A stretch of 22,829 nt of DNA. Source: a virus. The first letter of the stretch is position 1. Every line of letters begins with the position of its first letter. The stretch is from positions 1 to 22,829 of the IMG/VR virus record IMGVR_UViG_3300020185_000274. One strand, given 5' to 3'. Of the stretch, positions 862-22,665 are shown piece after piece. The translations under genes and the position numbers were made by a program. The notes below the pieces were generated by a model. The model was not told the origin of the DNA and searched no databases. It saw only the letters and a program-made list of their open reading frames with translations.

Positions 862-869
862 TATAAATA
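862..869 (-). promoter_or_regulatory. Candidate late promoter element (TATTTATA) for the leftward fibre gene
   Basis: On the minus strand the sequence reads GATATTTATAAA, with core TATTTATA and 18 nt to the ATG at 843. The same core, in the same orientation relative to the gene, precedes five plus-strand genes in this window. The T4 late promoter core is TATAAATA, the reverse complement of this one. The assignment rests on recurrence and position only. Confidence 0.5.
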
Positions 870-881
870 TCGAAAGATAAC

Positions 882-910
882 TTGATTTACCAAAGAATAT
901 TATGTATACT
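882..910 (+). promoter_or_regulatory. Possible sigma70-like promoter (TTGATT-17-TATACT)
   Basis: TTGATT at 882-887 and TATACT at 905-910 are separated by 17 bp and would start RNA near 917, upstream of the gene at 954. This gene has no TATTTATA element, so an early or host-type promoter is expected here. A Bacteroidota host sigma factor would prefer a different motif (TTTG and TAnnTTTG), which is not seen, so the call is weak. Confidence 0.25.
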
Positions 911-920
911 ACTCAATAAA

Positions 921-1284
921 GGGGAGTTCTTTGACATTAATAACTAAAAAACTATGGAAATTACATCATTTATTTTGGGTGTACTTGCAGTCATTGCTAT
1001 TATGATGGTTGCGATTACGTCTGTGAATTATATGGCATTCAAAACTCTAAAAAGAGATTTTGATAATTATGTAAGCAGTACTGAAAGAGTACTTGCTGAT
1101 ATCTACAGAGATAATGAAACAGCTCGACAAGAGCTACATTCTCGAATTACAGAAACAGAACAAAACGTTGTTCGACATACCGACTCTAGAGTCGATAAAC
1201 TAGAAAGCAAAATCTATTCGGATTTTGATATTAAGAGAACCCAATCTCACCAATACTAATTAAATAACCCGTCGAGAACTCCCC
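921..1284. repeat. 10-bp perfect inverted repeat flanking a small membrane-protein gene
   Basis: GGGGAGTTCT at 921-930 and its exact reverse complement AGAACTCCCC at 1275-1284 lie just outside the gene 954-1259. Past the arms the similarity continues with one base missing (TTGAC against CGAC on the same strand). The two arms are G/C-rich in an A/T-rich genome. They could pair in a long-range RNA stem, be binding sites, or be chance: several 10-bp inverted pairs at this spacing are expected at random in a window this long. Confidence 0.35.
954..1259 (+). CDS. Small membrane-anchored protein with coiled-coil tail (unknown function)
   Basis: This 101-residue protein begins with one strongly hydrophobic segment (about residues 5-25, rich in I, L, V, A and M), followed by a charged helical region (about 45-92) with heptad-like spacing. 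That suggests a single-pass membrane anchor with a cytoplasmic or periplasmic coiled coil. There are no cysteines and no catalytic motif. The ATG follows an A-rich leader (TAACTAAAAAACT) with no Shine-Dalgarno sequence. It is the first rightward gene after the divergent region and is flanked by the inverted repeat at 921/1275. The family was not recognised. A phage membrane protein of this shape could act at the host inner membrane, for example in exclusion or lysis control, but nothing in the sequence decides this. Confidence 0.7.
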   Translation: MEITSFILGVLAVIAIMMVAITSVNYMAFKTLKRDFDNYVSSTERVLADIYRDNETARQELHSRITETEQNVVRHTDSRVDKLESKIYSDFDIKRTQSHQY

Positions 1285-1329
1285 ATTTATTTCCATATTT
1301 AACGCGATATTATGCAACATTATTACACA

Positions 1330-1344
1330 ACCACGACGCGTGGT
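1330..1344. other. Short hairpin upstream of a promoter-like element
   Basis: ACCACG (1330-1335) and CGTGGT (1339-1344) form a perfect 6-bp stem around a 3-nt loop (ACG). It sits 17 bp before the TATTTATA core at 1362. There is no following T-tract, so it does not look like an intrinsic terminator. It may be an operator-like site or chance. Confidence 0.3.
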
Positions 1345-1361
1345 GATATAACAATTACATA

Positions 1362-1369
1362 TATTTATA
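1362..1369 (+). promoter_or_regulatory. Candidate late promoter element (TATTTATA), 3 nt before a start codon
   Basis: The sequence ATATATTTATAC contains the core TATTTATA at 1362-1369, followed by CAC and then the GTG start at 1373. The 3-nt gap matches the element before the gene at 7406. If it works as a -10 element, transcription would begin at or next to the start codon, giving a leaderless mRNA. Confidence 0.5.
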
Positions 1370-1372
1370 CAC

Positions 1373-1597
1373 GTGAAAACACAACAACAAATTAAAGAAT
1401 ACGCTGCGATTGCACATTTATACTATTCAGAAGGAACCTTTACTAAAGATGAGGTTTATACCTGGATGGATGAATATGGGCTTGATGTTGTGAAATTGTT
1501 AAAAGGTAGAATCGAATTTACCTACTCAGATGATTGGTATTTAACTAAAATGATTATCTGGAAGAATGGTAAAGTTGAAGTAGAAACAGGTATATAA
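1373..1597 (+). CDS. Small protein of unknown function (74 aa, GTG start)
   Basis: The product is a small soluble protein of 74 residues. An N-terminal helical half (QQQIKEYAAIAHLYYSEG) is followed by TKDEVYTWMDEYGLDVVKLL and a short basic/beta C-terminal part ending in KVEVETGI. No family was recognised. GTG at 1373 is the only sensible start: no other start codon occurs until ATG at codon 32, which would remove the helical half. The start lies 3 nt after the TATTTATA element. The stop codon overlaps the next start by one base (TAATG at 1595-1599), which implies translational coupling to the 141-residue protein downstream. The coupled pair may act together; their role is unknown. Confidence 0.65.
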   Translation: MKTQQQIKEYAAIAHLYYSEGTFTKDEVYTWMDEYGLDVVKLLKGRIEFTYSDDWYLTKMIIWKNGKVEVETGI

Positions 1598-2022
1598 TGA
1601 TAGACCCCGAAAGACTTTTTAGTGCTTTTGAACTTCCTGAAGCTGAAGAAGGGGATATCTTTGTTGAACTTCAAAAAACCCAAACATTTAAATTGGGTAT
1701 GTTCAAAAAAATTATTTGGAATCAAAAAAGCATAGAAGATAAGATGGGTAAATTTTTAGAAATGATGCCCGACTTAGCCGAAAAAATAGATTTTGATGGT
1801 GATGCAGGTGAGTTTGTAACTCATACTAGAGCTTGGACATATCTCAAAGATTATGATCCTACTTCAGAACAAGGCAAAGATGCTGCTAGAATTTTCGCAG
1901 ATCAATACACTATTACAGCATGTGATTTGGCTATCTCATTTTGGGAAGAAAGAGAATCATATGAAAAGTGTGCCCATATCAAAAAAGTTCAAGATTTCTT
2001 AAAATTAAACGTGATTCCCTAA
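1597..2022 (+). CDS. Protein of unknown function (141 aa), coupled to upstream gene
   Basis: The product is 141 residues, acidic and mostly helical, with no signal peptide or membrane segment. Recognisable stretches are a central DFDGDAGEFVTHTRAW (about residues 64-79) and a C-terminal helix with EERESYEKCAHIKKVQDFL. No catalytic motif was identified and the family was not recognised. Its ATG overlaps the preceding stop (TAATG), with no Shine-Dalgarno sequence, so translation probably depends on re-initiation after the 74-residue protein. It is followed by the 102-bp gap with the GA-rich tract. It lies in the block of small non-structural genes upstream of the HD hydrolase and sigma factor. 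Confidence 0.7.
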   Translation: MIDPERLFSAFELPEAEEGDIFVELQKTQTFKLGMFKKIIWNQKSIEDKMGKFLEMMPDLAEKIDFDGDAGEFVTHTRAWTYLKDYDPTSEQGKDAARIFADQYTITACDLAISFWEERESYEKCAHIKKVQDFLKLNVIP

Positions 2023-2047
2023 CCTTTCTCCATTATTTTTAGGGTAC

Positions 2048-2086
2048 AGAGGAAAAAATGAGAGAGAGAGGGAGAGGGGATGAGAT
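2048..2086 (+). repeat. GA-rich purine tract
   Basis: Almost all bases from 2048 to 2086 are A or G. There is a 21-nt uninterrupted purine run at 2060-2080 that contains a (GA)n microsatellite, and only two T residues break the tract. Nothing comparable was seen elsewhere in the window. It lies in the gap between 2022 and 2125, overlapping the start of the possible micro-ORF. Confidence 0.6.
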
Positions 2087-2135
2087 GTCTCGCGACGTCT
2101 CCCGAGACGTAACAAAACAATATTATGAGAAATAA
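2058..2135 (+). CDS. Possible 25-residue leader peptide / micro-ORF
   Basis: An ATG at 2058 opens 25 codons ending in TAA at 2133-2135. Unlike almost every other gene here it has a Shine-Dalgarno-like AGAGG (2048-2052), 5 nt before the ATG. The peptide is very charged: an Arg/Glu/Gly-rich start (MRERGRGDE), then a tandem repeat SRDV-SRDV, then TKQYYEK. The repeat is encoded by the same bases that form the hairpin at 2095-2110. Its end overlaps the start of the next gene (ATG at 2125) by 11 nt in another frame, so ribosome passage could affect initiation there. It may equally be a chance reading of a structured leader. Confidence 0.25.
   Translation: MRERGRGDEMSRDVSRDVTKQYYEK
2095..2110. other. 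Hairpin in the leader of the 55-residue gene
   Basis: ACGTCT (2095-2100), loop CCCG and AGACGT (2105-2110) form a perfect 6-bp, G/C-containing stem, 14 nt before the ATG at 2125. A second copy of the half-site (GATGTCT, 2084-2090) lies just upstream. There is no T-tract after it, so termination is unlikely. A role in translation control or protein binding is possible. Confidence 0.35.
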
Positions 2136-2292
2136 ACAATTATTTGAACAGAAAATGGATCGCCTTGAAGGTAAGCTCCAACAGATTAGAGTAATGTCTA
2201 GTCGTAACATTTCACTCCAAGATCTATATAAGATGCTTGATGAGGGTGAAGAATTGATTGAAGACATGCGTAACATGCTTGAACGAGAATAA
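2125..2292 (+). CDS. Small helical protein (55 aa, unknown function)
   Basis: A 55-codon ORF runs from ATG 2125 to TAA 2290-2292. The product is highly charged and predicted to be entirely helical, with heptad-like spacing of Leu/Ile/Met (LFEQKMDRLEGKLQQIRVM, then LQDLYKMLDEGEELIEDM). That suggests a short coiled-coil or two-helix hairpin protein. There is no Shine-Dalgarno sequence; the leader is A-rich (AACAAAACAATATT). It lies 15 nt before the HD-hydrolase gene, in the same direction, so the two are probably co-transcribed. Codon use is like its neighbours. The family was not recognised; small helical proteins of this type are often adaptor or regulator proteins, but that is a guess. Confidence 0.6.
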   Translation: MRNKQLFEQKMDRLEGKLQQIRVMSSRNISLQDLYKMLDEGEELIEDMRNMLERE

Positions 2293-2307
2293 ACTAAAAT
2301 AAAAGTT

Positions 2308-3084
2308 ATGAAACTAACAGCAGAACAAATCCAACAAAATTGGATCGAATTCCTTACAAACATCGAAACCCACATCACGGGAGAACGTAAACAGAAACTT
2401 CTTGATTTTTACAATCAATATCAAGAACGTGTTATGTTAATGCCCGCTGCCCACAAGAAAGAATATCACAACGCCTTTCCTGGTGGGTATGTTGAGCACG
2501 TTAACCGTGTTGTAAAAGCTGCCCTTTCTATCTCTGCCGTTTGGGAGGGATTTGGTGCCGACATGACTACTTTCACAACTGAGGAATTAGTATTTTCTGC
2601 TATTAATCACGACCTGGGTAAGATGGGAGATGAAAACCATGAATCATACATACCCCAGGATGATAAGTGGAGAAGAGAGAAACTAGGTGAAGATTATAAA
2701 TTCAACACCAAAGTCCCATTCTCATCTGTCCCAGATCGTGGTTTATTTATGCTCCAGTCACATGGTGTGGTATATACTTTCAACGAAATGCTCGCGATTC
2801 AAACGCATGATGGTTTATACGACGCGGCTAATGAAAAGTATTTGAAAGCGTATATGCCCGAACAAAAACCACGTACTTCCCTACCATTCATACTACACCA
2901 GGCTGACTTGATGGCTGCACGTATTGAATTTGAGAGAGAATGGTTACCTAAGTTAAACGGTAGTTTGGAGAAGCAAAAAGAAAATTTTACCTTAAATGAC
3001 AAGCCGAAAGGTGCTACCAAGCAGCAAAAAGCACTTGGTTCAATTAAAAGTGAAGGTTTAAAAAATCTACTAGATAACTTATGA
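2308..3084 (+). CDS. HD-domain metal-dependent phosphohydrolase
   Basis: This 258-residue protein has the layout of the HD superfamily: His64 in GGYVEHVNRVV, the HD doublet His101-Asp102 in INHDLGKMG, a further HD pair His167-Asp168 in IQTHDG, and His197/Asp200 in LHQADLMAARIE. These would bind one or two divalent metals and hydrolyse a phosphoester bond. HD enzymes act on (d)NTPs, cyclic nucleotides or RNA 3' ends. The GGYVEHVNRV...HDLGK spacing resembles the YhaM-type 3'-5' exoribonuclease HD domain, but no N-terminal OB fold is present, so the substrate is open. The C-terminal 50 residues are basic and probably helical. ATG 2308 follows an A-rich leader without Shine-Dalgarno. The stop overlaps the next start (ATGA, 3081-3084). 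Arg is mostly CGT, unlike the virion genes, which use AGA. Confidence 0.8.
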   Translation: MKLTAEQIQQNWIEFLTNIETHITGERKQKLLDFYNQYQERVMLMPAAHKKEYHNAFPGGYVEHVNRVVKAALSISAVWEGFGADMTTFTTEELVFSAINHDLGKMGDENHESYIPQDDKWRREKLGEDYKFNTKVPFSSVPDRGLFMLQSHGVVYTFNEMLAIQTHDGLYDAANEKYLKAYMPEQKPRTSLPFILHQADLMAARIEFEREWLPKLNGSLEKQKENFTLNDKPKGATKQQKALGSIKSEGLKNLLDNL

Positions 3085-3356
3085 TCATAGCAATCATCTT
3101 ACTATCCGTTTTGGTTCTTACTCTAGGGTATACGACCATAAACCTTCTTCGTAAAAATGAACAACAAGAAGATATCCTCGCAGGCTACCTAGAATACCTA
3201 GATAGACTATCGCGAGTAATAGAGGTTTCGGATACAAAGATGAAAGAAGTTGATTCAAGAGGTACGTTTAGTAGCGATGACGAAGTTGGTTTTTTCTTTC
3301 AACAAATAAAAGGGTTACAAGATATCTTAAGCGAGTTTAAACTCGATAAAGAATAA
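3081..3356 (+). CDS. Small membrane-anchored protein (91 aa, unknown function)
   Basis: The first ~22 residues form one hydrophobic segment (MIIAIILLSVLVLTLGYTTI), followed by a charged helical domain. The C-terminal part contains SSDDEVGFFFQQIKGLQDIL (residues 64-83), a motif I associate from memory with small proteins of marine T4-like phages, although I cannot name a function. It is a probable single-pass inner-membrane protein with a cytoplasmic tail. Its ATG overlaps the stop of the HD hydrolase (ATGA), so the two are translationally coupled. It is followed after 6 nt by the sigma-factor gene. Nothing catalytic was seen. Confidence 0.7.
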   Translation: MIIAIILLSVLVLTLGYTTINLLRKNEQQEDILAGYLEYLDRLSRVIEVSDTKMKEVDSRGTFSSDDEVGFFFQQIKGLQDILSEFKLDKE

Positions 3357-3362
3357 GATATT

Positions 3363-4076
3363 ATGGCCATAAAAAAGACCCGAAGACCTAAGAGTAAAAA
3401 CTACTTTACTCAAGATACAGAAGATGCTATTGTATTATACAATGGCACTTCTGATACTGATGTAAAGAGTAGAATTTACCAAGATCACATCCATTACCCA
3501 TTTTTTAAGTTAACAGAGAACATCATCCACACCTTTAAGTTTTATTATACTGAAGTAGATGAGATTGAACATTTACAACACGAGGTAATTTGTTTTTTAC
3601 TTTCTAAAATTCATTTATTTGATCCTACTAGAGGGGCCAAAGCATATTCTTATTTTGGTACTATAGCTAAACGTTATCTCATTCTTCAAAATCAAAAGAA
3701 TTATAAAAAACGTGTACACAAGGCCCCAGTAGACGAGCTATTTAAAGACGACACTTACACTTATAGTATGGATGATCCAGGGGTACACAATGATCCCTTA
3801 AATCTTTACATTAATCTATTTGTAGACCACTGTACAGAAAATATCTATAAATTATTCCCTAAACAAAAGGATGCTGAGATTGCTGATGCTATCTTAGAAT
3901 TATTCCGTAAGCGTGAGGAAATAGATGTTTTCAATAAAAAAGCACTTTACATCTATATTAGAGAGATGGTAGATGTTAAAACACCTAAGATTACTAAAAT
4001 AGCAAACCAACTATACTCAGTATTTAAAGGTAATTATATTTTCTATCTCGAAAACGGATATGTAGAATTCGAATAA
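3363..4076 (+). CDS. gp55: Late-transcription sigma factor, gp55-like
   Basis: This 237-residue protein resembles the T4 gp55 family, the phage-encoded sigma factor that directs host RNA polymerase to late promoters. The sigma region-2-like core is visible at residues 46-107: FFKLTENIIHTFKFYY, then a helix with HEVICFLLSKIHLFDP, then TRGAKAYSYFGTIAKRYLI, which parallels the FDPxRG...SYF...A+RYL pattern of sigma70 region 2. There is no region 4, as expected for gp55. The N-terminus is basic (KKTRRPKSK). The C-terminus is short and hydrophobic/acidic (YIFYLENGYVEFE); in T4 the gp55 C-terminus contacts the sliding clamp, and this tail could do the same, though the motif is not clearly conserved. 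It lies directly upstream of virion genes carrying a shared promoter-like element, which fits its role. Confidence 0.85.
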   Translation: MAIKKTRRPKSKNYFTQDTEDAIVLYNGTSDTDVKSRIYQDHIHYPFFKLTENIIHTFKFYYTEVDEIEHLQHEVICFLLSKIHLFDPTRGAKAYSYFGTIAKRYLILQNQKNYKKRVHKAPVDELFKDDTYTYSMDDPGVHNDPLNLYINLFVDHCTENIYKLFPKQKDAEIADAILELFRKREEIDVFNKKALYIYIREMVDVKTPKITKIANQLYSVFKGNYIFYLENGYVEFE

Positions 4077-4081
4077 GGTTA

Positions 4082-4089
4082 TATTTATA
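4082..4089 (+). promoter_or_regulatory. Candidate late promoter element (TATTTATA) ahead of the baseplate block
   Basis: TTATATTTATAC contains the core at 4082-4089, 20 nt before the ATG at 4110, in the short gap after the sigma-factor gene. A TATAAATA sequence also overlaps the start codon itself (4103-4110), so this gap has the core in both orientations. Confidence 0.5.
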
Positions 4090-4109
4090 CATGAATAAAC
4101 ACTATAAAT

Positions 4110-4445
4110 ATGAGTCAACAATTCGAAAAAACAATATTTGGTACTAAGAAATTCTCGGATTTACTTGAGGAGATCTATAATAACCAAAAGCGCCGCGAAG
4201 CGCAAGTAACCGCGCTTATATCCGAATTAAAACCGATGGTTTCCGACATTGGTGACGCTACACTTATTGTACCCCTCATTAAAGAATACATGGAAATTGG
4301 TGTTAAAAACGATGATGCACTAATTAAAATGGCTACGTTAGTACAACGTGCTCTAAATTCATCTAATGAAGATGGTAGTTTAGGTATTTCGGATGAAGAA
4401 AAAGCTCAATTACTTGAGGAAATGGAAAAATTACAAAGTAAATAG
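4110..4445 (+). CDS. Small acidic helical protein (111 aa, unknown function)
   Basis: The product is 111 residues, predicted helical and acidic. The N-terminus is MSQQFEKTIFGTKKFSDLLEEIYNNQKRREAQ, written here in two parts as MSQQFEKTIFGTKKF and SDLLEEIYNNQKRREAQ. A central region (KPMVSDIGDATLIVPLIKEYMEIGVKN in pieces) follows, with a charged C-terminal helix (DEEKAQLLEEMEKLQSK). Its size and position next to gp55 recall gp33, the T4 late-transcription co-activator (112 residues), but the clamp-binding C-terminal motif of gp33 is not seen, so I do not assign it. It is preceded by the promoter element at 4082 and followed after 2 nt by the spike gene, which makes a virion or assembly role equally possible. 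Confidence 0.7.
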   Translation: MSQQFEKTIFGTKKFSDLLEEIYNNQKRREAQVTALISELKPMVSDIGDATLIVPLIKEYMEIGVKNDDALIKMATLVQRALNSSNEDGSLGISDEEKAQLLEEMEKLQSK

Positions 4446-4447
4446 TA

Positions 4448-6070
4448 ATGAGTTGGTTTGGTAATGATAATAAAGATAGAAGTAATTCTGTTCCTTCTTC
4501 TCAACTTATACCTGGAAGGGTTCTTAGTATAGATCAAACTTCAACCTTATCTAATGGAGATATTATGGTTGAGCCTATGAAAGTTACTAATAACTTACCT
4601 GGGAGTTTAGGTATTAAGGCTTCTCCTTTATTTCCTAATATTAAAAATTACCCCCTAAAAAATGAAACAGTATACCTCCTATCATTCCCAGGAGGTAATT
4701 TCTCTAGCAATCCAGGTGATGTAAAGTATTACTACCTTAGCCCAGTAAAAATTTGGCCTAATGCTACAAATACAAACCCAACACCAAATACTGCTGAAAA
4801 CATTCAAGGTAGCAACCAAAATAAAAGTCTTCAAGAAATTGAATTAGGTTCCCCTAATGTTTCTACAAAACAACAAACCAGTAATTTTAAACCTGGGACT
4901 TACTTTACAGAAAAATCTAATATTTTCCCCTTATTCCCTTTCGAGGGAGATGTTATAGTTGAAGGTAGATTTGGTAATAGTATTAGATTTGGTAGTACTG
5001 ATATTCAGTATGGTTCAAATACAACTCAAAATATAATCACCAAACAATTTGAAGAATCTTATACATATTCTTCAGGTGAGACTGACTTACCTTTAAGTTT
5101 TAACTCTAAATTAGTAGCAGTTAATAATAAAGTTGGAGCGTTTTTTCAAAAGTACGATGATGATAAGATATCTATCTTTATTGAATCTGTTGAATCTCAA
5201 GTCTCTAACCCTAACAATATAGTAGCAGGTGAACTTGCTAAACTTAGAGCACAAAAGGCACAAGATTTAGTACTAAGTCTTTCAAACTTTAAATATAATA
5301 TAAGTGTTAACTCTAGAATAGGGGATACACCTTATATTCCGGGAAGAGACAAACCAGATGATCCTAAATATCTTAAAGATCAATACACTAGTATTAAAAT
5401 TTTGGTTCAAGGTACTGAGGTAATTAACCAACCATCTCAACCACAGTCTTTAAATAACTGGTCTATATCGGGTTCAAATGGTGATCCTATTACTATTTTA
5501 AGAAATGGTCAAAACCCTGAGTTAACAGGATCTGCTCTTTCGTTAACAGTAGAGGATATAAATAAGGATTTATCTTCTGCTTATTTTACTTCAACCCAAA
5601 ATATTCCTATTGAAGTATCATCTAAAAATGATTACCTTTCATATGGTGAAAACCAACCCACAGATCCAAAAGATTATAATAAAGCCCAAATAATCCTAAA
5701 TTCAGGTAGATTAGCATTCAATACTACCCAGGATCATATAATGTTATCATCAAAAAAGAGCATTAACCTTAATTCAATTGAAGGTGTAAATGTTGATACT
5801 ATAGGTCCTGTAGTAATAGAAGCACCTGAAATTAAGTTAGGTTCAAATGATGCTGAAGAATCTGTCTTATTAGGGGATTCAACTGTAGATTTATTACAAA
5901 GTTTAATTAGTGATTTGTCATCATTAACTAAAATAATGGGAAGTCAAATAGGTAATAATGGTATATTATTAGAACCTATGGGTACTACAGCACGTACTAT
6001 TAGTAATAACTTAGATACTTATCAAACACAACTTGATAGTTTAAAATCTAATATTGTAAAAGTAGAATAA
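4448..6070 (+). CDS. gp5: Baseplate hub/spike protein, gp5-like, with possible OmpA-like insert
   Basis: This 540-residue protein has a three-part layout like T4 gp5. Residues ~18-105 form an OB-fold-like domain (LIPGRVLSIDQTS...GDIMVEPMKV). Residues 165-184 hold a conserved FEGDVIVEGRFGNSIRFG stretch. Residues 340-480 lead into a repetitive beta region (QIILNSGRLAFN, HIMLSSKKSINLNS, IEAPEIKLGS, ESVLLGDSTVDLL), as expected for the trimeric beta-helix needle. T4 gp5 carries a lysozyme between these parts; no lysozyme motif is seen here. Residues ~215-322 instead look like an OmpA/MotB-type peptidoglycan-associated fold: KISIFIESVESQVSN, GELAKLRAQKAQDLVLSL, then YTSIKILVQG. The gene starts 2 nt after the previous stop and ends in a TAATG overlap with the next. 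The spike identity is fairly sure; the insert is inference. Confidence 0.7.
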   Translation: MSWFGNDNKDRSNSVPSSQLIPGRVLSIDQTSTLSNGDIMVEPMKVTNNLPGSLGIKASPLFPNIKNYPLKNETVYLLSFPGGNFSSNPGDVKYYYLSPVKIWPNATNTNPTPNTAENIQGSNQNKSLQEIELGSPNVSTKQQTSNFKPGTYFTEKSNIFPLFPFEGDVIVEGRFGNSIRFGSTDIQYGSNTTQNIITKQFEESYTYSSGETDLPLSFNSKLVAVNNKVGAFFQKYDDDKISIFIESVESQVSNPNNIVAGELAKLRAQKAQDLVLSLSNFKYNISVNSRIGDTPYIPGRDKPDDPKYLKDQYTSIKILVQGTEVINQPSQPQSLNNWSISGSNGDPITILRNGQNPELTGSALSLTVEDINKDLSSAYFTSTQNIPIEVSSKNDYLSYGENQPTDPKDYNKAQIILNSGRLAFNTTQDHIMLSSKKSINLNSIEGVNVDTIGPVVIEAPEIKLGSNDAEESVLLGDSTVDLLQSLISDLSSLTKIMGSQIGNNGILLEPMGTTARTISNNLDTYQTQLDSLKSNIVKVE

Positions 6071-7389: not shown

Positions 7390-7394
7390 ACCAA

Positions 7395-7402
7395 TATTTA
7401 TA
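7395..7402 (+). promoter_or_regulatory. Candidate late promoter element (TATTTATA), 3 nt before a start codon
   Basis: AATATTTATAAT contains the core at 7395-7402, then ATC and the ATG at 7406. The 3-nt spacing is identical to the element before 1373. It lies in the 16-nt gap after the 439-residue protein and would head the gp25-gp6 unit. Confidence 0.5.
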
Positions 7403-7405
7403 ATC

Positions 7406-7744
7406 ATGAAATTAAACGAATTAAGAAAAGTAATTAGAGAAGAAGTGAAAGCTGCTATCCAAGAAGAATTAAAAGACATTCTTCTAGAGGCTGTTCGCTC
7501 ACCTAAACCCGCAATTACCGAAAATCTTTCAGTTGCGGCATCAGTAAAACCAGACCCAGAAGCACAAAAAGCATTTAGACAACAAATGTTATCTCAAATG
7601 GCTGCAGGTAATGGAAATATGAATTTAACAACCGCAGATTCTAACACATTTAGACCTGCAGGACCAGCAACTGCTGAAGGCTCAGCCCTACCTGAAGGTA
7701 ATGTAGGTTTAGACCAAATTATGGGGTTAATGACAGGTAAATAA
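7406..7744 (+). CDS. Small virion-associated protein with N-terminal amphipathic helix (112 aa)
   Basis: The first ~30 residues form a highly charged amphipathic helix (MKLNELRKVIREEVK, then AAIQEELKDILLEAV). The rest is low in charge and rich in Ala, Gly, Met and Pro, ending DQIMGLMTGK. Helical LRKxIREEV-type N-termini recur in marine T4-like phage proteins, perhaps as an assembly tag, but I cannot assign a function. No other start codon is available in the helix, so the ATG 3 nt after the promoter-like core must be the start. The stop overlaps the gp25 start (TAATG at 7742-7746), so the two are translationally coupled. A chaperone or minor baseplate role is possible. Confidence 0.65.
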   Translation: MKLNELRKVIREEVKAAIQEELKDILLEAVRSPKPAITENLSVAASVKPDPEAQKAFRQQMLSQMAAGNGNMNLTTADSNTFRPAGPATAEGSALPEGNVGLDQIMGLMTGK

Positions 7745-8151
7745 TGGCTTATAACGCTCAACAGATATCACCAATTGACTTTAGACCTAGTGTAGGTGTA
7801 GGGGTATCTCTACCCTTTAATGGTAATTCTTGTTTTAACACAACATTTACTACACAAGAGTCCATTAAAAGTAACTTAGTTAATTGGTTTTTAACGAACC
7901 AAGGAGAGCGTCCTCTAAATCCTAATTTTGGAGGTAATTTAAGACAATTTTTATTCCAACAAATCTCAGAAGATACTCTAGAATTCCTAGAAGAAGATAT
8001 CCAGTCTCAATTGAGTACTGCTTTTCCTAGTGTAATTGTAGATAGCCTAGAAGTTACAACCAACCCCGATTATAACTCAATAACTGTAGTACTTAAATAC
8101 AGTGTAGAGAGTACAAACATAAGTGATGAATTAAATATAACATTTGACTAA
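7744..8151 (+). CDS. gp25: Baseplate wedge protein gp25
   Basis: This 135-residue protein matches the GPW/gp25 family: the signature LTNQGERPLNPNFGGNLRQ lies at residues 50-68, preceded by the helix ESIKSNLVNWF and followed by a helix and three beta strands (SITVVLKYSVES). The length fits T4 gp25 (132 residues). The family is structurally like the tail lysozyme-like sheath-initiator proteins of contractile systems: gp25 sits at the base of the sheath and joins the wedge (gp6-gp53) and the first sheath ring. The gene overlaps both neighbours by one base (TAATG at 7742-7746 and 8149-8153), and gp6, its binding partner in the wedge, follows directly. Confidence 0.9.
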   Translation: MAYNAQQISPIDFRPSVGVGVSLPFNGNSCFNTTFTTQESIKSNLVNWFLTNQGERPLNPNFGGNLRQFLFQQISEDTLEFLEEDIQSQLSTAFPSVIVDSLEVTTNPDYNSITVVLKYSVESTNISDELNITFD

Positions 8152-9992
8152 TGGCTATAAATAGAGACATAAAATATATTAATAGGGATTTCGGGAACCT
8201 TAGACAGAATTTAATTAATTATTCTAAGACTTATTTCCCAACCACCTATAATGATTTTACAGAATCATCACCAGGTATGATGTTTATGGAATTATCCGCT
8301 TACGTGGGTGATGTTTTATCTTTTTACCAAGATAACCAATTCCAAGAAACTTTCCTTCAATACGCCCGTGAAGCTAAAAATTTATACGATTTAGCTTACA
8401 TGATGGGATATAAACCTAAAACAACAGGTGTAGCTTTAGTTGATATTGATTTTTATCAAACTGTCCCTTCTTTATCTAATGAGCCTGATTACAATTACGC
8501 TTTATTAATAAGTGAAAATTCTCAAGTAACAACCCCTTCTGGAGTTAAATTTTTAGTAGAAGACCCAGTTGATTTTGATACATCATCTTCATCAGACCCA
8601 ACAACAGTCTCTATATACGAGCAAGATGGAACTAACATTAATTCATTCCTATTAAAGAAGACTAGAAAAGCAATCTCAGCTGCTATTAATGAAACAACAT
8701 TTTCATTCTCTTCCCCACAAGAATTTGCTACTCGTAGTATTACAGCTAATAATATCATTGGTATTTTAGATATTGTAGATTCTGATGGTAATGTTTGGTA
8801 TGAAGTACCTTACTTAGGTCAAGAAATGGTGTATAATTCTATTAAGAATACAAACACAAATGATCCCAACTTCTCATCTCAAGAAGGAGATTCACCTTAT
8901 TTATTGAAATTAAAACAAGTCTCTAGAAGATTTGCTACAAGATTCCAATCACCTACTACCTTACAAATCCAATTTGGAGCTGGTACATCAAGTGATACGA
9001 ATGAAGAAGTAACACCTAATGCTGATAATGTTGGTTTAGGTTTACCATTTGAAAAAGATAAACTAACAGCTGCTTACTCTCCTCAAAACTTTATCTTTAC
9101 AGATACTTATGGAATTGCCCCTTCAAATACAACTCTAACAGTTAGATATTTGACAGGAGGTGGCGCTACAGCTAATGTATCTGCTGGAAGTTTAACAACA
9201 TTAACTGACAGTACAGTAGAATTTCAAGTAGCGGGTTTAGTAAGTAATTTAGCAGATGATACATTTAATTCACTTCAAGTTACAAACCCATTAGCTGCCT
9301 CTGGAGGTAGTGATGGTGATACTAATGAAGAAATTAGACAAAATGCTATTTCAAACTTCTCAACACAGTTACGTAGTGTAACTCAAGATGATTATTTAGT
9401 TAGATCTTTAGCAATGCCCCCTAAATATGGTGTAGTATCTAAAGCTTATATTGAACAAACTAAATTAAACACACTACTCCCAGGTGAAATCCCATCAACA
9501 TTATCCTTATATGTTTTAAGTGCTAATGCTGAAAATAATTTAACTTTAGCGGGTAGTGCCTTAAAACAAAACCTACAAACTTATTTATCTCAATATAGAG
9601 TAATAGGTGATTCCATTAACATTAAAGATGCCTTTATAGTTAATATTGGTGTTGATTTTGAAATTACAGTTAGACCTAATTTTAATAGTAATGAGGTATT
9701 AAGAAAATGTTTAACAGAATTAAAAGCCTATTTTAACATAGATAAATGGCAAATCAATGAACCTATCCAAGTAAGTGAATTATTTTTACTATTAGATAAA
9801 GTTCAAGGTGTTCAAACTGTTAAAAATGTATTCATTACTAATAAAGTAGGAGAATCTTTAGGTTATTCTAAATACGCTTACGACATACCAGGAGCAACAT
9901 TGAATGGTGTAATTTACCCATCAATTGATCCTATGATATTTGAAGTGAAATACCCTAATAGTGATATTAAAGGTAAAACAGTAAACATGTAA
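8151..9992 (+). CDS. gp6: Baseplate wedge protein gp6 (baseplate J family)
   Basis: This 613-residue protein is close to T4 gp6 (660). The N-terminal region carries the family pattern: NRDFGNLRQNLINYSKTYFP, then ESSPGMMFMELSAYVGDVLS and YDLAYMMGYKPK (residues 13-85). The baseplate-J core follows, with NPLAASGGSDGDTNEEIRQN near residues 380-400 and TQDDYLVRSL soon after. The C-terminal part (KDAFIVNIGVDFEITV, then VSELFLLLDKVQGVQTVKNV) resembles the gp6 dimerisation region. Two gp6 chains in each wedge form the iris-like ring around the hub that opens when the sheath contracts. It overlaps gp25 by one base and is followed 2 nt later by the next gene. Assignment is confident. Confidence 0.92.
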   Translation: MAINRDIKYINRDFGNLRQNLINYSKTYFPTTYNDFTESSPGMMFMELSAYVGDVLSFYQDNQFQETFLQYAREAKNLYDLAYMMGYKPKTTGVALVDIDFYQTVPSLSNEPDYNYALLISENSQVTTPSGVKFLVEDPVDFDTSSSSDPTTVSIYEQDGTNINSFLLKKTRKAISAAINETTFSFSSPQEFATRSITANNIIGILDIVDSDGNVWYEVPYLGQEMVYNSIKNTNTNDPNFSSQEGDSPYLLKLKQVSRRFATRFQSPTTLQIQFGAGTSSDTNEEVTPNADNVGLGLPFEKDKLTAAYSPQNFIFTDTYGIAPSNTTLTVRYLTGGGATANVSAGSLTTLTDSTVEFQVAGLVSNLADDTFNSLQVTNPLAASGGSDGDTNEEIRQNAISNFSTQLRSVTQDDYLVRSLAMPPKYGVVSKAYIEQTKLNTLLPGEIPSTLSLYVLSANAENNLTLAGSALKQNLQTYLSQYRVIGDSINIKDAFIVNIGVDFEITVRPNFNSNEVLRKCLTELKAYFNIDKWQINEPIQVSELFLLLDKVQGVQTVKNVFITNKVGESLGYSKYAYDIPGATLNGVIYPSIDPMIFEVKYPNSDIKGKTVNM

Positions 9993-9994
9993 TT

Positions 9995-10312
9995 ATGGGA
10001 CTTTTAGATAGATATAATAAAATAGTAGGAGTAGGAAACCCGCTTCAAGGTAATACAAGTACAGGTCTTATATTTGACCCATCATCACCACAACAAATAA
10101 CTCAAGATAAAGTAACTGATTTTAATAAAACTAGTTTAGATTTAGAAGACCCAAATCCCTTAGGAGGTCCCATTAATGTATCTTATACTACCCAAGTAGG
10201 TGAAGACATAGTAACTTCTCCTACTACCCAACCATACACACCTAAAAACACTTACTCAGATAGCTTTACTAGCCCAGAATTAAAAGCACGAACCATAGAT
10301 CCTTACAAATAA
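9995..10312 (+). CDS. Small proline-rich virion-type protein (105 aa)
   Basis: The product is 105 residues and rich in Pro, Thr, Ser, Asp and Asn. The N-terminus is a short helix (MGLLDRYNKIVGV); the remainder looks extended or disordered (NPLGGPINVSY, VTSPTTQPYTPKNTY). There are no cysteines and no motif of known function. Extended Pro/Thr-rich proteins between wedge genes could be linker peptides that thread through the baseplate, but that is inference from position alone. It sits 2 nt after gp6 and 1 nt before the next gene, so it belongs to the same operon. Confidence 0.65.
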   Translation: MGLLDRYNKIVGVGNPLQGNTSTGLIFDPSSPQQITQDKVTDFNKTSLDLEDPNPLGGPINVSYTTQVGEDIVTSPTTQPYTPKNTYSDSFTSPELKARTIDPYK

Positions 10313-10313
10313 G

Positions 10314-17810: not shown

Positions 17811-17843
17811 ACTATAATTTGGCGTAAAATTAAAACTAACATA

Positions 17844-17851
17844 TATTTATA
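17844..17851 (+). promoter_or_regulatory. Candidate late promoter element (TATTTATA) before the 218-residue virion gene
   Basis: ATATATTTATAA contains the core at 17844-17851, 17 nt before the ATG at 17869, within the 58-bp gap that follows the giant gene. No hairpin terminator is visible in this gap. Confidence 0.55.
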
Positions 17852-17868
17852 ATAAACAACATTAGAAA

Positions 17869-18525
17869 ATGGGATATTTAAATAATTCAGTAGTAACAGT
17901 AGATGCTATCCTTACAACAAGAGGTAGACAACTGTTAGCTCAAAATGACGGTTCATTCGTAATCACTCAATTTGCACTAGCAGATGATGAGATTGATTAT
18001 ACATTGTATAACCCAACTCACCCCTCAGGCTCAGCTTACTACGGTCAAGCAATCGAAGGTATGCCTTTATTAGAAGCATTCCCGAACGAGACACAAATCA
18101 TGAAGTACAAGTTAACTACTTTACCTCGTGGTACTGCTAAAATGCCTATCCTAGATGTTGGTTACACTAATATTGTAATTAAACAAGGTGCTTCATTAGC
18201 AATTACTCCTCAAACATTAAATTACCTAGGTGGTAACCAATCTGAGACCTCAGGTTATACTGCTACAATTTCTGATGTTAGATTATTTAATACGTTTGAG
18301 GGAGTAGGTATTAATACAGCAGATGCAACTGCTCTAAATGCTTCAACTACTACACTAGGTACTAATGTATCTAAAACTGTAGTAGGTACTACTATTAACT
18401 TAACTGCAACTACTGTAAATACATTGTTTGGTTCAAATACTCAACTTCAAGCTACTTTGGTGATTGAAGGTAGAGACTCAGGAGCAAGAATCCAGGTACC
18501 AGTAACAGTAACTAAAGTATCCTAA
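17869..18525 (+). CDS. Virion structural protein (218 aa), probably abundant
   Basis: The product begins MGYLNNSVVTVDAILTTRGR and continues with QLLAQNDGSFVITQFALADD, a compact pattern that I associate with structural proteins of marine T4-like phages. The C-terminal ~100 residues are Thr/Ala/Asn-rich and beta (TVVGTTINLTATTVNTLFG...LVIEGRDSGARIQVPVTV), like an immunoglobulin-type domain. It has no cysteines. It is the first gene after its own TATTTATA element and an untranslated leader (AATAAACAACATTAGAAA) without Shine-Dalgarno, an arrangement that suits a strongly expressed late gene. Codons are rather uniform. It lies 10 nt before the next virion gene. Its place in the particle (tail, neck or fibre) is not decided by the sequence. 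Confidence 0.7.
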   Translation: MGYLNNSVVTVDAILTTRGRQLLAQNDGSFVITQFALADDEIDYTLYNPTHPSGSAYYGQAIEGMPLLEAFPNETQIMKYKLTTLPRGTAKMPILDVGYTNIVIKQGASLAITPQTLNYLGGNQSETSGYTATISDVRLFNTFEGVGINTADATALNASTTTLGTNVSKTVVGTTINLTATTVNTLFGSNTQLQATLVIEGRDSGARIQVPVTVTKVS

Positions 18526-18535
18526 AACCTAGATT

Positions 18536-19555
18536 ATGTCATTTAAAGCATTCGAACAAGACGATTTTGTAGTATCAGCTGATAGTATTACCGCTGGCTT
18601 ATGGACAGGTAACTCACCTGAACTTATTACATTCTTTACTTCATCTACCCAAGTAGCATCTTCTAATGGTGATTACTACATTAATGTATTTAATTCTGCT
18701 TCATTAACAGATATCCAATTTGCAATTGCTTATGGTGATGTTGATGGTAGTGGTTCTATAGAATACGATAGTGCAGTACCAGGGAAATCTCCTTCTTCTA
18801 CAACTTATGGTCAATACCGTACTTTAGTACTAGGAGATGAATTAGCAGAATTTACTTTTGGTGGTGTAACCGCTCCAAACTTCTATGCAATCTCAGTAGA
18901 TAGAAATAGATATAAAGGAGGTTTATTCCCGGGTTCAACAACCCTAGATTTAACTGTAGGTGCTAATACAATTTCTCTTACAGATAATTCTCAAGTTGCA
19001 ACAACAGTAGAATTTAATGATGCTGGTAGAGTATACCAATTAGTATCGGGTTCAGCAGGTACAGTATTTGATACTACTTCAACAGGTGGTGGTATTAATG
19101 GCTACTCAGCCTCAGGCTCATACGGTTTATTCTTACCAGATATCGCTACTTATATTCTAAACCCATCAGCATTAGATGCGGCAGTAGCAGACGGTGGTAT
19201 TTTATTAGGTACAACTAGAGGAGATAATGTTGATAGTGAAAATGCTGGTAGATTATACGATGCAATTGTAGACGGTGCTTCATTTACAGCAAATTCAGAA
19301 GAAACAATTACTTCCGATTTTATATTTGTAAGACCAAGAAGTTCAGAATTTAACTACTCAGAAAACCCATCATTTATCTCAGGTTCAACTGGTGAAGTAT
19401 TATACAGCTCATTTATTAATAATCCTACAACTTATGTAACAACAGTAGGTTTATATAATAATGCTAGTGAATTGTTAGCAGTAGCTAAATTATCCACTCC
19501 ATTAGAGAAAGATTTTACAAAAGAAGCTCTTATTAGAGTTAAGCTAGACTTCTAA
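18536..19555 (+). CDS. Virion structural protein, paralogue A (339 aa)
   Basis: This beta-rich protein shares its overall plan with the next gene product. Shared blocks are: N-terminus F+xFxxxDxxV; a central FYAISVDRNRYKGGLFPGS (about 116-134), matching AAFSIPSRLFGDYIQPNS in the neighbour; and a C-terminal block SEFNYSENPSFISGS...YVTTVGLYNNASELLAVAKL (about 268-325), closely matched in the neighbour. A DVDGSGSIE stretch (68-76) looks like a calcium-loop pattern, though it may be only a turn in a Gly/Ser-rich protein. YGLFLPDIATYILNPSALDA (about 196-215) is a further recognisable stretch. Proteins with these blocks are known to me from marine T4-like phages as virion proteins. Its function is unnamed. 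Confidence 0.75.
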   Translation: MSFKAFEQDDFVVSADSITAGLWTGNSPELITFFTSSTQVASSNGDYYINVFNSASLTDIQFAIAYGDVDGSGSIEYDSAVPGKSPSSTTYGQYRTLVLGDELAEFTFGGVTAPNFYAISVDRNRYKGGLFPGSTTLDLTVGANTISLTDNSQVATTVEFNDAGRVYQLVSGSAGTVFDTTSTGGGINGYSASGSYGLFLPDIATYILNPSALDAAVADGGILLGTTRGDNVDSENAGRLYDAIVDGASFTANSEETITSDFIFVRPRSSEFNYSENPSFISGSTGEVLYSSFINNPTTYVTTVGLYNNASELLAVAKLSTPLEKDFTKEALIRVKLDF

Positions 19556-19560
19556 AATGA

Positions 19561-20460
19561 ATGGCAGCCTACAAACAATTTTTATCATCTGATGTAATTG
19601 TTACCCCATTTGAGGTTAACAAAGGGTTTACTTTTCCTTCATCTGAATTTACAGATAGCGATGTAAATATAGATCGTTTTGAAGGAGTAAATAATACTCT
19701 TATAAACAACTTTTCTAAAACTGGTAACAATAATGCCCAGTATAAAGTATTAATATATAGTTCTATTAAAGAATTATATTATTCTAACTTTACAACCTCT
19801 AGTTACGGCTCAGAACCAGTCTCAGCATCATTACTTCCAGGAGAAACACCTGAAGGTAATGTACTTAGAGGTCCCTCTAACTCTGTAGGTAGATATGAAA
19901 ATTATCTCCAATCTACTTTAACCCAATCTAGATTTATCCCTACAGGCTCTGGAAATAAAATTGCTGCATTTTCAATTCCATCACGCCTATTTGGGGATTA
20001 TATTCAACCTAACTCATTTATTTGGGAAGATAATACTAATAATGTTACTTTTACTGATGATGGTGAAGGTAATCTCATCTCAGGTAGTACAGTAGTAGGT
20101 AACATTATTTATCCTCATGGGATGGCAGTTATTACTAACCAAGATTTTACAATGGCTAACTTAGTTAGTGCTACAAATGTAACTTGTTCATTCTCTAGTT
20201 CATTAAAAATATTTGAGACTCAATACAAAGCAACAATAAGCGAGTTCGAATATAATTTCTCACAAAACCCATCTATTATTTCAGGCTCAACAGATGGTTC
20301 AGTATACGATTTTACAACAGGTAGTTTCTTTCAACCTTATGTTACTACAGTAGGATTATATAATGAGGCTCAAGAGTTATTAGCGGTAGGAAAATTATCA
20401 CAACCCTACCCATTATCTCGTACAACAGATACGACATTCTACATTAATATAGATAGATAA
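19561..20460 (+). CDS. Virion structural protein, paralogue B (299 aa)
   Basis: This 299-residue protein starts 5 nt after paralogue A. It has AYKQFLSSDVIVTPFEVNKG at the N-terminus, VGRYENYLQSTLTQSRFI (about 108-125), AAFSIPSRLFGDYIQPNSFI (about 135-155) and IIYPHGMAVITNQDF (about 182-196). It ends with SEFEYNFSQNPSIISGSTDG and YVTTVGLYNEAQELLAVGKL (about 226-285), nearly the same block as the end of paralogue A. It is beta-rich, without cysteine-pair or enzyme motifs. The shared ends suggest a common attachment surface or mixed oligomer in the virion. The exact position in the particle is unknown. Confidence 0.75.
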   Translation: MAAYKQFLSSDVIVTPFEVNKGFTFPSSEFTDSDVNIDRFEGVNNTLINNFSKTGNNNAQYKVLIYSSIKELYYSNFTTSSYGSEPVSASLLPGETPEGNVLRGPSNSVGRYENYLQSTLTQSRFIPTGSGNKIAAFSIPSRLFGDYIQPNSFIWEDNTNNVTFTDDGEGNLISGSTVVGNIIYPHGMAVITNQDFTMANLVSATNVTCSFSSSLKIFETQYKATISEFEYNFSQNPSIISGSTDGSVYDFTTGSFFQPYVTTVGLYNEAQELLAVGKLSQPYPLSRTTDTTFYINIDR

Positions 20461-20464
20461 AATT

Positions 20465-20920
20465 ATGAATTGGTTATACAAAGGCGAGGAAATGTCCTCA
20501 ATAGAGGATTTCCCTACCTCAACTTTCGGTTTTACTTATAGAATAGTCCATACCCCAAGTGATAAGGCTTATATAGGTAAAAAAGTCCTACAATTTACTC
20601 GTAAAGCTAAATTAACTAAAAAAGATTTAGCATTATATGAAGGTACTAAAGGACGTAAACCCTCATTTAAAAAGATAACTAAAGAATCTGATTGGAAAGA
20701 ATATTGGGGTTCAAATAAATATCTTTTAGAACTATTAAAGACTGAACCTAGAGAAAACTTCAAACGTGAAATTTTAGCTTTGGCTCCTAATAAAAAGTTA
20801 TTAACTTACGAAGAGACAAAAGCGTTATTCGTATATCAAGTGTTAGAAAAACCCGAAGAGTTCTTCAACGATAATATTTTAGGTAAGTTTTACACAAAAG
20901 ACTTTGATTTCCAAGAATAG
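20465..20920 (+). CDS. SegE-like GIY-YIG domain protein (putative endonuclease)
   Basis: This 151-residue protein has a GIY-YIG-type core near the N-terminus: FGFTYRIVHT (21-30) supplies the first strand with FTY in place of GIY, and KAYIGKK (34-40) supplies YIG. In classical GIY-YIG nucleases an Arg follows the second motif; here Lys39/Lys40 occupy that place. The later WKEYWGSNKYLLE, NFKREIL, a Glu near 116/117 and NDNI (135-138) fit the pattern of the SegE-like phage family. Members include homing endonucleases of T4-like phages, but many are single-domain proteins of unproven activity. It lies between virion and replication genes without its own promoter element. Nuclease activity is plausible, not certain. 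Confidence 0.7.
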   Translation: MNWLYKGEEMSSIEDFPTSTFGFTYRIVHTPSDKAYIGKKVLQFTRKAKLTKKDLALYEGTKGRKPSFKKITKESDWKEYWGSNKYLLELLKTEPRENFKREILALAPNKKLLTYEETKALFVYQVLEKPEEFFNDNILGKFYTKDFDFQE

Positions 20921-20940
20921 GGTTGTATATTCACCCTTAT

Positions 20941-21867
20941 ATGGTAAATCATTTATTAGTAAACATAGTTAACTCCGTTCTAGGAGCGGGTAAAGCTACA
21001 GCTAGAGGTAATCAAGCGTACCACTGTCCGTTTTGCCATCACTCTAAACCTAAATTAGAGGTTAATTTTACTGATGGTCAAAAGAATCCTTGGCATTGTT
21101 GGGTATGTAATAAAAAAGGTACAAATCTAGTTACCTTACTAAAACAAGCTAAAGCCCCAGCTGAAAAAATAGCTGAAATTAAAAAACACGTCTCTTACAA
21201 AGATTACAGAAGTAATACTAAAAAAGTAGAGGCAATCCACCTACCAAAAGAGTTTAAAGCATTTACAGATATATCTAAAGGTGATATGACTGGTAGACAA
21301 GCATTAGCTTATCTAAAACGTCGTAACGTAACTAAAGCGGATATATTGCGCTACAATATTGGTTATTGCGATGGCGGTGTCTATGATAAGATGATTATAA
21401 TACCGTCGTATTCCCACGAAGGTTCCCTAAATTATTTTGTGGCTCGTAATTTCAATGAACACAGCCCTGTCAAATATAAAAACCCACCAATGAGTAAAGA
21501 CACAGTTCCATTTGAACTGTTTATAAATTGGTCATCACCTTTGATTTTGGTTGAAGGTATGTTTGATGCTTTGGCAGTAAAACGAAATGCTATACCATTA
21601 TTAGGTAAGCATATCCAGAGAGAATTAATGAAAAAGATTGTTACCTCACAGGTACAAAAAATATATATAGCTTTAGATAAGGACGCGCAACAGGATGCCG
21701 TTAAGTTTTGTGAACAGTTAATGGATGAAGGTAAGGAAGTATATTTAGTAGATTTAGAAGATAAAGACCCATCGGAAATGGGATTCAAAGCTATTACTAA
21801 TCTTATCCAAAAAACAACCCCACTAGATCAATACGATTTAATGGCTAAAAAATTACAATTTGTATGA
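20941..21867 (+). CDS. gp61: DNA primase, gp61-like (zinc finger plus Toprim)
   Basis: This is a DnaG-type primase, which makes RNA primers for lagging-strand synthesis with the replicative helicase. From the ATG at 20941 it has 308 residues. The N-terminal zinc-binding domain has HCPFCHH (Cys29, Cys32) and WHCWVC (Cys53, Cys56). The Toprim core follows: LILVEGMFDALA with Glu205, then YIALDKDAQQDA with Asp246 and Asp248, and a later acidic LEDKDPSEMG. The length fits T4 gp61 (342). A TTG at 20923 would add six residues (MYIHPY); the ATG is preferred because the conserved fold begins close after it and TTG lacks any ribosome-binding sequence. Its stop overlaps the next start (ATGA). Confidence 0.88.
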   Translation: MVNHLLVNIVNSVLGAGKATARGNQAYHCPFCHHSKPKLEVNFTDGQKNPWHCWVCNKKGTNLVTLLKQAKAPAEKIAEIKKHVSYKDYRSNTKKVEAIHLPKEFKAFTDISKGDMTGRQALAYLKRRNVTKADILRYNIGYCDGGVYDKMIIIPSYSHEGSLNYFVARNFNEHSPVKYKNPPMSKDTVPFELFINWSSPLILVEGMFDALAVKRNAIPLLGKHIQRELMKKIVTSQVQKIYIALDKDAQQDAVKFCEQLMDEGKEVYLVDLEDKDPSEMGFKAITNLIQKTTPLDQYDLMAKKLQFV

Positions 21868-22643
21868 GTAAGAAAGTCCTAAAGAATTCTTACAAGCGTA
21901 TTTTGGAAGTATCATCTGATGCTAAACAAATTACAATGCCTGATTCACGTTACTATCAGCGTAATGGCGACTATTACCCATCTATCACTTATGTTCTAGG
22001 TACTTACCCAAAAGGTAAATACTTTGAAGACTGGTTGAAAAAAGTAGGATATGCCTCGGAGCACATCGTACGTAAAGCAGCTGATCAAGGTACAGAAACA
22101 CATGAGATGATCGAGGATTATCTAAATGGTAAAGAGTTAAACTTCTTATCACCTAAAGGATATCCACAATACGATACATTGGTTTGGCAGATGTTCCTTA
22201 GATTTGTTGATTTTTGGGAAGAATATAAACCTGAATTAATCGAGACCGAAGTACACTTATTCTCAGATGAGCTTAAAGTAGCAGGTACTTGTGATATGGT
22301 TTGTAAAATTGATGGTGAACTTTGGATTATCGATTTTAAAACATCTAACCACCTCCAAACAACATACGACCTTCAAACTGCGGTTTATGGCAAGTGTTAC
22401 GAGGAATGTTTTGGACATACTCCAGATCGTTATGGTGTTTTGTGGTTAAAATCTAACAAGCGTAAAGGAGCAACTGGTAAGATTCAAGGTAAAGGATGGG
22501 AGATGTACGAATCATCTCGTAGCCAAGAGGAAAATCTTGACATCTTTATGACAGTTAAAAAATTATTTGATTTAGAAAACCCAACCCACAAACCAGCATT
22601 TACTAAATTTAGAACATCTGCGCGCCGAATACTTGGAGATTAA
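21864..22643 (+). CDS. PD-(D/E)XK nuclease (RecB/Cas4-like exonuclease family)
   Basis: This 259-residue protein shows the motifs of RecB-like PD-(D/E)XK nucleases: GTETHEMIEDYL with His80, AGTCDMVCKI with Asp144, WIIDFKTS with Asp157 and Lys159, and LQTAVYGKCY with Gln171 and Tyr175 (the QxxxY motif). These residues bind the catalytic metal and DNA. There is no iron-sulphur cysteine set, so it is closer to phage single-domain exonucleases than to Cas4 or AddB. It is translationally coupled to the primase (ATGA overlap, 21864-21867), pointing to replication or recombination work such as processing DNA ends or degrading host DNA. Arg codons are mostly CGT, as in the primase. The substrate cannot be read from the sequence. 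Confidence 0.82.
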   Translation: MSKKVLKNSYKRILEVSSDAKQITMPDSRYYQRNGDYYPSITYVLGTYPKGKYFEDWLKKVGYASEHIVRKAADQGTETHEMIEDYLNGKELNFLSPKGYPQYDTLVWQMFLRFVDFWEEYKPELIETEVHLFSDELKVAGTCDMVCKIDGELWIIDFKTSNHLQTTYDLQTAVYGKCYEECFGHTPDRYGVLWLKSNKRKGATGKIQGKGWEMYESSRSQEENLDIFMTVKKLFDLENPTHKPAFTKFRTSARRILGD

Positions 22644-22657
22644 GGGAATCTTTCGTA

Positions 22658-22665
22658 TATTTATT
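22658..22665 (+). promoter_or_regulatory. Candidate late-type promoter element (TATTTATT, variant)
   Basis: GTATATTTATTG holds a variant core, TATTTATT, at 22658-22665, 14 nt before the ATG at 22680. It differs from the other five cores in the last position. Confidence 0.4.

Follow-up and report, generated by a model that had tools for sequence, protein, structure and literature searches.

The closest described system is the late promoter of phage T4, with the core TATAAATA in T4 (Straboviridae) and NATAAATA in cyanophages, which is read by the phage-encoded sigma factor gp55. It consists of a single AT-rich 8-bp box resembling a -10 element, has no -35 element and stands before virion genes. 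Its activation goes through the sliding clamp gp45 and through gp33, and late in infection RNA synthesis begins some 5 nt beyond the box. Three bases of the non-template strand, -12A, -9A and -8A, are flipped by T4 gp55 and held in pockets of the protein (PMC7892883). A second point of comparison is the sigma-A promoter of Flavobacterium and Bacteroides, TTTG/TAnnTTTG (PMC6847099, PMC9723704), whose TAnnTTTG box occupies -12 to -5 (PMC9723704). Here we analyse an element, TATTTATA, that recurs before genes of a 22.8-kb IMG/VR fragment (record IMGVR_UViG_3300020185_000274, 22,829 nucleotides; hereafter the window), which derives from a T4-like myovirus with a GC content of 33% and encodes a gp55-type sigma factor. 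A sequence-only reading of the window had proposed that this element is a late promoter, the likely target of the encoded sigma factor, and opposite in polarity to that of T4. The first two proposals are well supported by where the element lies across genomes, by its bias towards late genes, by phylogenetic footprinting and by the sigma-2 fold of the encoded protein. The elements at 862 (minus strand), 4082, 7395 and 17844 are quite probably late promoters recognised by the gp55-type sigma that the phage, a T4-like myovirus and a relative of Flavobacterium phage immuto, itself encodes, and the conserved element is most likely a gp55-type late -10 box with changed sequence.

In the mechanism that we propose, each late promoter would be a single -10-like box, [A/C]TATTTAT(A), with no fixed -33 box, probably located at about -12 to -5 as is the flavobacterial host box. 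Host RNA polymerase with the phage sigma (3363-4076) bound to it would recognise the box on the non-template strand, the T4 box having changed at two central positions with its polarity retained, and early genes would be served by a separate, host-like promoter, TTG-N20-TATATTTA. As in T4, the sigma is encoded by the phage, and its sigma-2 region can be aligned with that of gp55. It differs from T4 in the central AA, which is replaced by TT, in the position of the box, often 3-4 nucleotides (nt) from the ATG, and in a conserved C-terminal helical domain of about 100 amino acids in the sigma.

The closest named relatives of the window are Flavobacterium phage immuto (NC_055915; host Flavobacterium sp. 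LMO8, sigma KNV73_gp118), Microcystis phage Mel-JY01 (PP395634) and the uncultured phage LR756508. Relatives are also encoded on hundreds of IMG/VR contigs, the best of which are much closer than the named phages. TATTTATA precedes late (virion) genes in a large group of T4-like phages that infect flavobacteria and their relatives, and is most likely the start signal for the phage sigma there. The literature searched, which left most subscription papers outside, holds no description of TATTTATA as a phage promoter or of late promoters in flavobacterial phages.

Placement and conservation of the element

All six elements listed by the sequence-only reading lie where it had placed them, and the genes at 954, 2125, 2308, 3363 and 20465 lack the element, as it had said. 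Its statement that no full core occurs in a coding region did not hold, a sense copy being present inside gene 1-843 (minus strand), and it had missed a T4-type TATAAATA at 4103-4110; this string also occurs within genes at 5557 and 8156. The sites are as follows.

862-869, minus strand: TATTTATA, putative late-promoter core for gene 1-843 (minus strand), 18 nt before the ATG; TATTTAT[AT] kept in 9/10 orthologues.
1362-1369, plus strand: TATTTATA, class uncertain, 3 nt before the GTG at 1373.
4082-4089, plus strand: TATTTATA, putative late-promoter core for gene 4110 and the baseplate operon; TATTTAT[AT] kept in 49/51 distinct orthologous upstream regions.
4103-4110, plus strand: TATAAATA, the T4-type string, overlapping the ATG of gene 4110; probably incidental.
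7395-7402, plus strand: TATTTATA, putative late-promoter core, 3 nt before the ATG at 7406; TATTTAT[AT] kept in 69/69; predicted leaderless mRNA.
17844-17851, plus strand: TATTTATA, putative late-promoter core for gene 17869; TATTTAT[AT] in 20/20 orthologues.
22633-22665, plus strand: putative host-like promoter TTG-N20-TATATTTATT, containing the sixth element, TATTTATT (22658-22665); TTG 25 bases before TATTTA.
424-431, minus strand: sense TATTTATA inside coding region 1-843 (minus strand); probably chance.

Counts of the core in the whole window are uninformative (9 exact copies of TATTTATA on both strands against 6.4 expected, no excess), and strand and placement must be considered. The 383 bases of codirectional intergenic DNA in the window contain 4 sense copies of TATTTATA compared with 0.23 expected, the largest number in 200 shuffles being 2, and no sense copy of TATAAATA. 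A genome-wide test was carried out on immuto, whose genome is complete, and on eight large IMG/VR relatives, together with Mel-JY01 (1-50 kb) and with T4 (75-125 kb) as a control. Sense TATTTATA in codirectional gaps exceeded the shuffles in immuto and in all eight large relatives, with 5 to 30 copies where 0.2 to 3.4 were expected. Observed and expected numbers were 24 and 2.2 in immuto, 7 and 0.74 in Mel-JY01, 30 and 3.4 in relative G001, 17 and 1.8 in G002, 9 and 0.23 in G005, 8 and 0.28 in G007, and 6 and 0.28 in G008. Sense TATAAATA was near expectation in the codirectional gaps of the window and of the relatives tested (0 in Mel-JY01), whereas the T4 control showed the opposite pattern, with TATAAATA at 4 against 0.23 expected and TATTTATA at 0. 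The comparison of frequencies inside genes and between orientations, which the sequence-only reading had named as a refuting test, left the late-promoter claim unrefuted in immuto and the eight large relatives.

In immuto, 24 of the 30 plus-strand copies of TATTTATA fall in the 4.8% of the DNA that is non-coding; the genes that they precede include those for terminase, portal, sheath, tube, hub and tape measure. The box is also biased towards the late region, where 17/39 genes have it, versus 7/86 elsewhere (Fisher p = 1e-5). The top motif found de novo in immuto and in the large relatives tested contained TATTTA (ATATTTAT or similar). Phylogenetic footprinting agrees with these patterns: conservation of TATTTAT[AT] upstream of gene 4110 extends to orthologues with protein identity down to 36%, and the motif is absent upstream of the orthologues of the sigma gene (0/58) and of an HD-hydrolase gene (0/53). 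Genes internal to operons mostly lack it (0/78, 0/49, 0/48 and others); gene 10314 has it in 11/59. The T4-type string upstream of gene 4110 is restricted to close relatives (20 of 51 upstream regions); none of the 24 orthologues below 75% identity has it, and 22 of these 24 have TATTTAT[AT].

Two proposed promoter classes

TATTTA sites in leaders split into two classes: (a) [A/C]TATTTAT(A), mostly without an upstream box, and (b) TATATTTA with a TTG at a distance of exactly 25 bases upstream of TATTTA. TTG stands at that distance in 20/24 TATTTAG sites versus 21/171 TATTTAT sites. Among 152 late sites, the 10 farthest-upstream columns tabulated carry at most 0.11 bits each, so that no conserved -35 element is present there. 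Class b is biased away from the late region of immuto (p = 0.01) and lies mainly in the region of small genes; it closely resembles the host sigma-A promoter. In immuto at 60-77 kb (L001 10000-27000), a host-like GTTG-N20-TATATTTAGGTAT is regularly repeated before many small hypothetical genes, and these repeats are probably early promoters of immuto.

The six elements of the window had been treated as one class, an assignment that the split modifies. The element at 22658 belongs to the host-like class. The one at 17844 bears both signatures, since it also fits TTG (17819)-N20-TATATTTA (17842-17849), and TTG-N20-TATATTT is kept in 9/20 orthologues; it is possibly a dual promoter. For the element at 1362 the few, distant orthologues give no support: TATTTAT[AT] occurs in 0/3 of them and TTG-N20-TATATTT in 2/3. 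At 862, TTG lies 24 bases upstream, one base off the class-b spacing.

These signatures bear on the strongest competing explanation, that the boxes are promoters of the host primary sigma factor and that late timing comes from something else. If placed at -12 to -5, the AT-rich host box TAnnTTTG shares T-12, A-11, T-8 and T-6 with TATTTATA, and TTG occurs 24-25 bases upstream of 17844, 22658 and perhaps 862. However, the same genomes contain the separate host-like class with its strict TTG spacing, the two classes precede different gene sets, and the late boxes, most of them without TTG, have A at position 6 and A or T at position 8 instead of the TTTG of the host. The same motif is also found in Mel-JY01, a phage listed from a cyanobacterium. 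We therefore regard recognition by the host sigma as unlikely.

The encoded sigma factor and the strand read

3363-4076, plus strand: gp55-type sigma factor of 237 amino acids; sigma-2 at about residues 14-115, conserved C-terminal helical domain at residues 140-237.

That a gp55-like sigma is encoded at 3363-4076 was confirmed in the sense that the protein is a diverged gp55-type factor with a sigma-2 fold that can be aligned with T4 gp55. The profile of the sigma family matches the gp55 family in the sigma-2 region (profile-profile E 2.2e-5, probability 76%), and 16 of 27 family members weakly match the late sigma phrog_234 (best 0.002). A structure model was built from an alignment of the window and IMG/VR sequences only, with a predicted local distance difference test score (pLDDT) of 76. 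Its residues 14-115 superpose on sigma-2 structures over about 93-96 residues with a root-mean-square deviation (rmsd) of 2.5-2.9 A. T4 gp55 (7D7C) was second in the structure ranking (Z 10.8), but with an rmsd of 10.0. The sigma profile had no match at E<=10 among PDB chain sequences, and Foldseek alone gave the model no E below 0.001, the sigma-2 matches coming from a second structural aligner. The C-terminal domain (FNKKALYIYIRE...KTPKIT; window 3780-4076) is highly conserved and helical, about 98 residues long, with a pLDDT of 88; the gp55 family is otherwise characterised by a sliding-clamp-binding motif at the C terminus and no additional domain. Taken alone it showed no clear known fold (best Foldseek E 1.9), and weak matches included TFIIB (Z 3.3-4.5). 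A gene previously called hypothetical can be named as that of a probable late sigma factor.

A homologous sigma, Rm378p020 (hhalign E 8.6e-10), is encoded by Rhodothermus phage RM378 (NC_004735). There TATTTAA occurs in sense orientation in 13/62 leaders versus 2 antisense, considering both genome strands, and precedes the portal, sheath and tube genes among others, often 5 nt from the ATG. The RM378 box continues with AAA, unlike the box described here, which continues with ATA. Rm378p020 (NC_004735 17032-17826) is annotated as hypothetical; because it is homologous to the sigma family of the window's clade, it is probably the late sigma of RM378. Since Mel-JY01 shares the box and RM378 uses TATTTAA, the TATTTA core appears to follow the sigma lineage.

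The proposal of a polarity opposite to that of T4 stands as a description of the string, TATTTATA being the exact reverse complement of TATAAATA; it does not stand as the simplest reading, for a two-base change of the same polarity suffices. TATTTATA is TATAAATA with AA replaced by TT at positions 4-5 (TAT-AA-ATA to TAT-TT-ATA), that is, at -10 and -9; -12A and -8A, the bases held in deep pockets, are the same in both. The profile alignment shows Y97 of the -12A pocket conserved and N13/H95 of the shallow -9 pocket replaced by T16/Y95. Because only positions 4-5 differ, -12A and -8A are kept and Y97 is conserved, a same-polarity change of the T4 box would be the simpler reading.

A truly reversed T4 promoter, in which the sigma would read TATAAATA on the template strand, is a far weaker candidate, and we consider it very improbable. 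Besides the exact complementarity, reading of the template strand has a precedent in the AR9 non-virion RNA polymerase (nvRNAP; PMC9209446), and the base preceding the core here, A or C in 94%, is roughly complementary to the one that follows the T4 core (T/G/C, in 13 T4 sites only), a comparison of flanks that may slightly favour template-strand reading. However, the T4 core is nearly palindromic, so two same-polarity substitutions explain the string. The sigma-2 region aligns, with Y97 in place, to that of T4 gp55, which reads the non-template strand (PMC7892883). The AR9 enzyme is a different polymerase with a uracil-DNA motif, and its specialised specificity subunit is specially adapted to template-strand reading (PMC9209446), adaptations for which no search was made here. 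RM378, with its homologous sigma, uses TATTTAA and not a reversed T4 core.

Several observations weigh against a gp55-type late promoter of unchanged polarity. T99 of T4 gp55, which hydrogen-bonds -8A, is aligned with G99, and the pocket argument is incomplete for this reason. The match of the single sequence to Pfam Sigma70_r2 is weak and below the cut-off (E 0.0058). The sigma of LR756508 is 41% identical, yet in the 50 kb examined neither core was in excess and no clear motif emerged de novo. Finally, in immuto the box is absent from the leader of the major capsid gene and from those of 18 further genes in the late region, although some of these genes may lie inside operons.

Leaders, wider implications and neighbouring features

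The distance from box to start codon spans about 3 to more than 50 nt, with a peak at 3-4 nt (27/152 sites) to which many unrelated genes contribute; among orthologues of gene 7406, 46 of 69 have the box 3-4 nt from the ATG. With the box at -12 to -5, like that of the host, transcription would start at the ATG, and genes with this spacing are therefore predicted to yield leaderless late mRNAs. In Flavobacterium psychrophilum, leaderless mRNAs account for only 5.5% (PMC9723704). No Shine-Dalgarno sequences were evident in the window leaders inspected. Mel-JY01, listed as a Microcystis phage yet related to immuto, has late leaders that carry both TATTTATA and GGAG.

Proximity to start codons would also be expected of a signal in A/U-rich leaders that acts in translation or RNA processing, and the hosts, which lack Shine-Dalgarno sequences, tune initiation through bases that precede the start codon, an A at -3 being one example (PMC6847099). 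Such a signal is hardly compatible with the wide range of distances to the start codon, with the near-complete lack of the motif at operon-internal genes that have equal translation needs (0/58, 0/78, 0/49 and others) or with the Shine-Dalgarno-like GGAG that accompanies the motif in Mel-JY01, and we give it little credence as a substitute for a promoter. Chance occurrence in an AT-rich genome, to which the unremarkable whole-window count would point, is refuted by the tests of placement, strand and conservation and has a negligible probability.

A sliding clamp of the gp45 type (PF02916) or DnaN type (PF00712) was not found in immuto, Mel-JY01, RM378, G001 or G002, although a gp55-type sigma is present, a result still compatible with a diverged clamp; as a control, T4 matched PF02916 at 2.9e-35. 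Since no clamp was detected, activation by a T4-style clamp may be missing, and late transcription in the clade may do without such a clamp and yield many leaderless mRNAs. The more radical proposal, that the sigma reads the late promoter on the template strand or, in a milder form, drives a clamp-independent late programme of many leaderless mRNAs with the new C-terminal domain in place of gp33/gp45, seems unlikely to us. The DNA polymerase annotated in immuto belongs to family A.

With the non-template, gp55-type box, many aquatic T4-like phages, which form a large group and include one cultured phage of Flavobacterium, would have a testable late promoter common to the clade. The box also suggests a route by which the -10 specificity of a gp55-type sigma changed. 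On hundreds of uncultured contigs, the two promoter classes would make early and late genes easier to distinguish.

The window also encodes a primase, a PD-(D/E)XK nuclease and the baseplate proteins listed below.

7744-9992, plus strand: gp25-like and gp6/J-like baseplate genes, late genes 3' of the 7395 element.

Between the virion genes and the primase lies a SegE-like GIY-YIG endonuclease (20465-20920; PF19835, 3.1e-26), whose product is called 'NAD synthetase' in PHROGs, a name that also appears in the annotation of immuto. The gene at 22680-22829, which is cut by the end of the window, encodes a zeta-toxin/kinase-like P-loop protein and has the host-like promoter (22633-22663) upstream. 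Perfect inverted repeats, CCACGACGCGTGG (1331-1343) and ACGTCTCCCGAGACGT (2095-2110), occupy the leaders of the genes at 1373 and 2125 and are possible operators or RNA hairpins.

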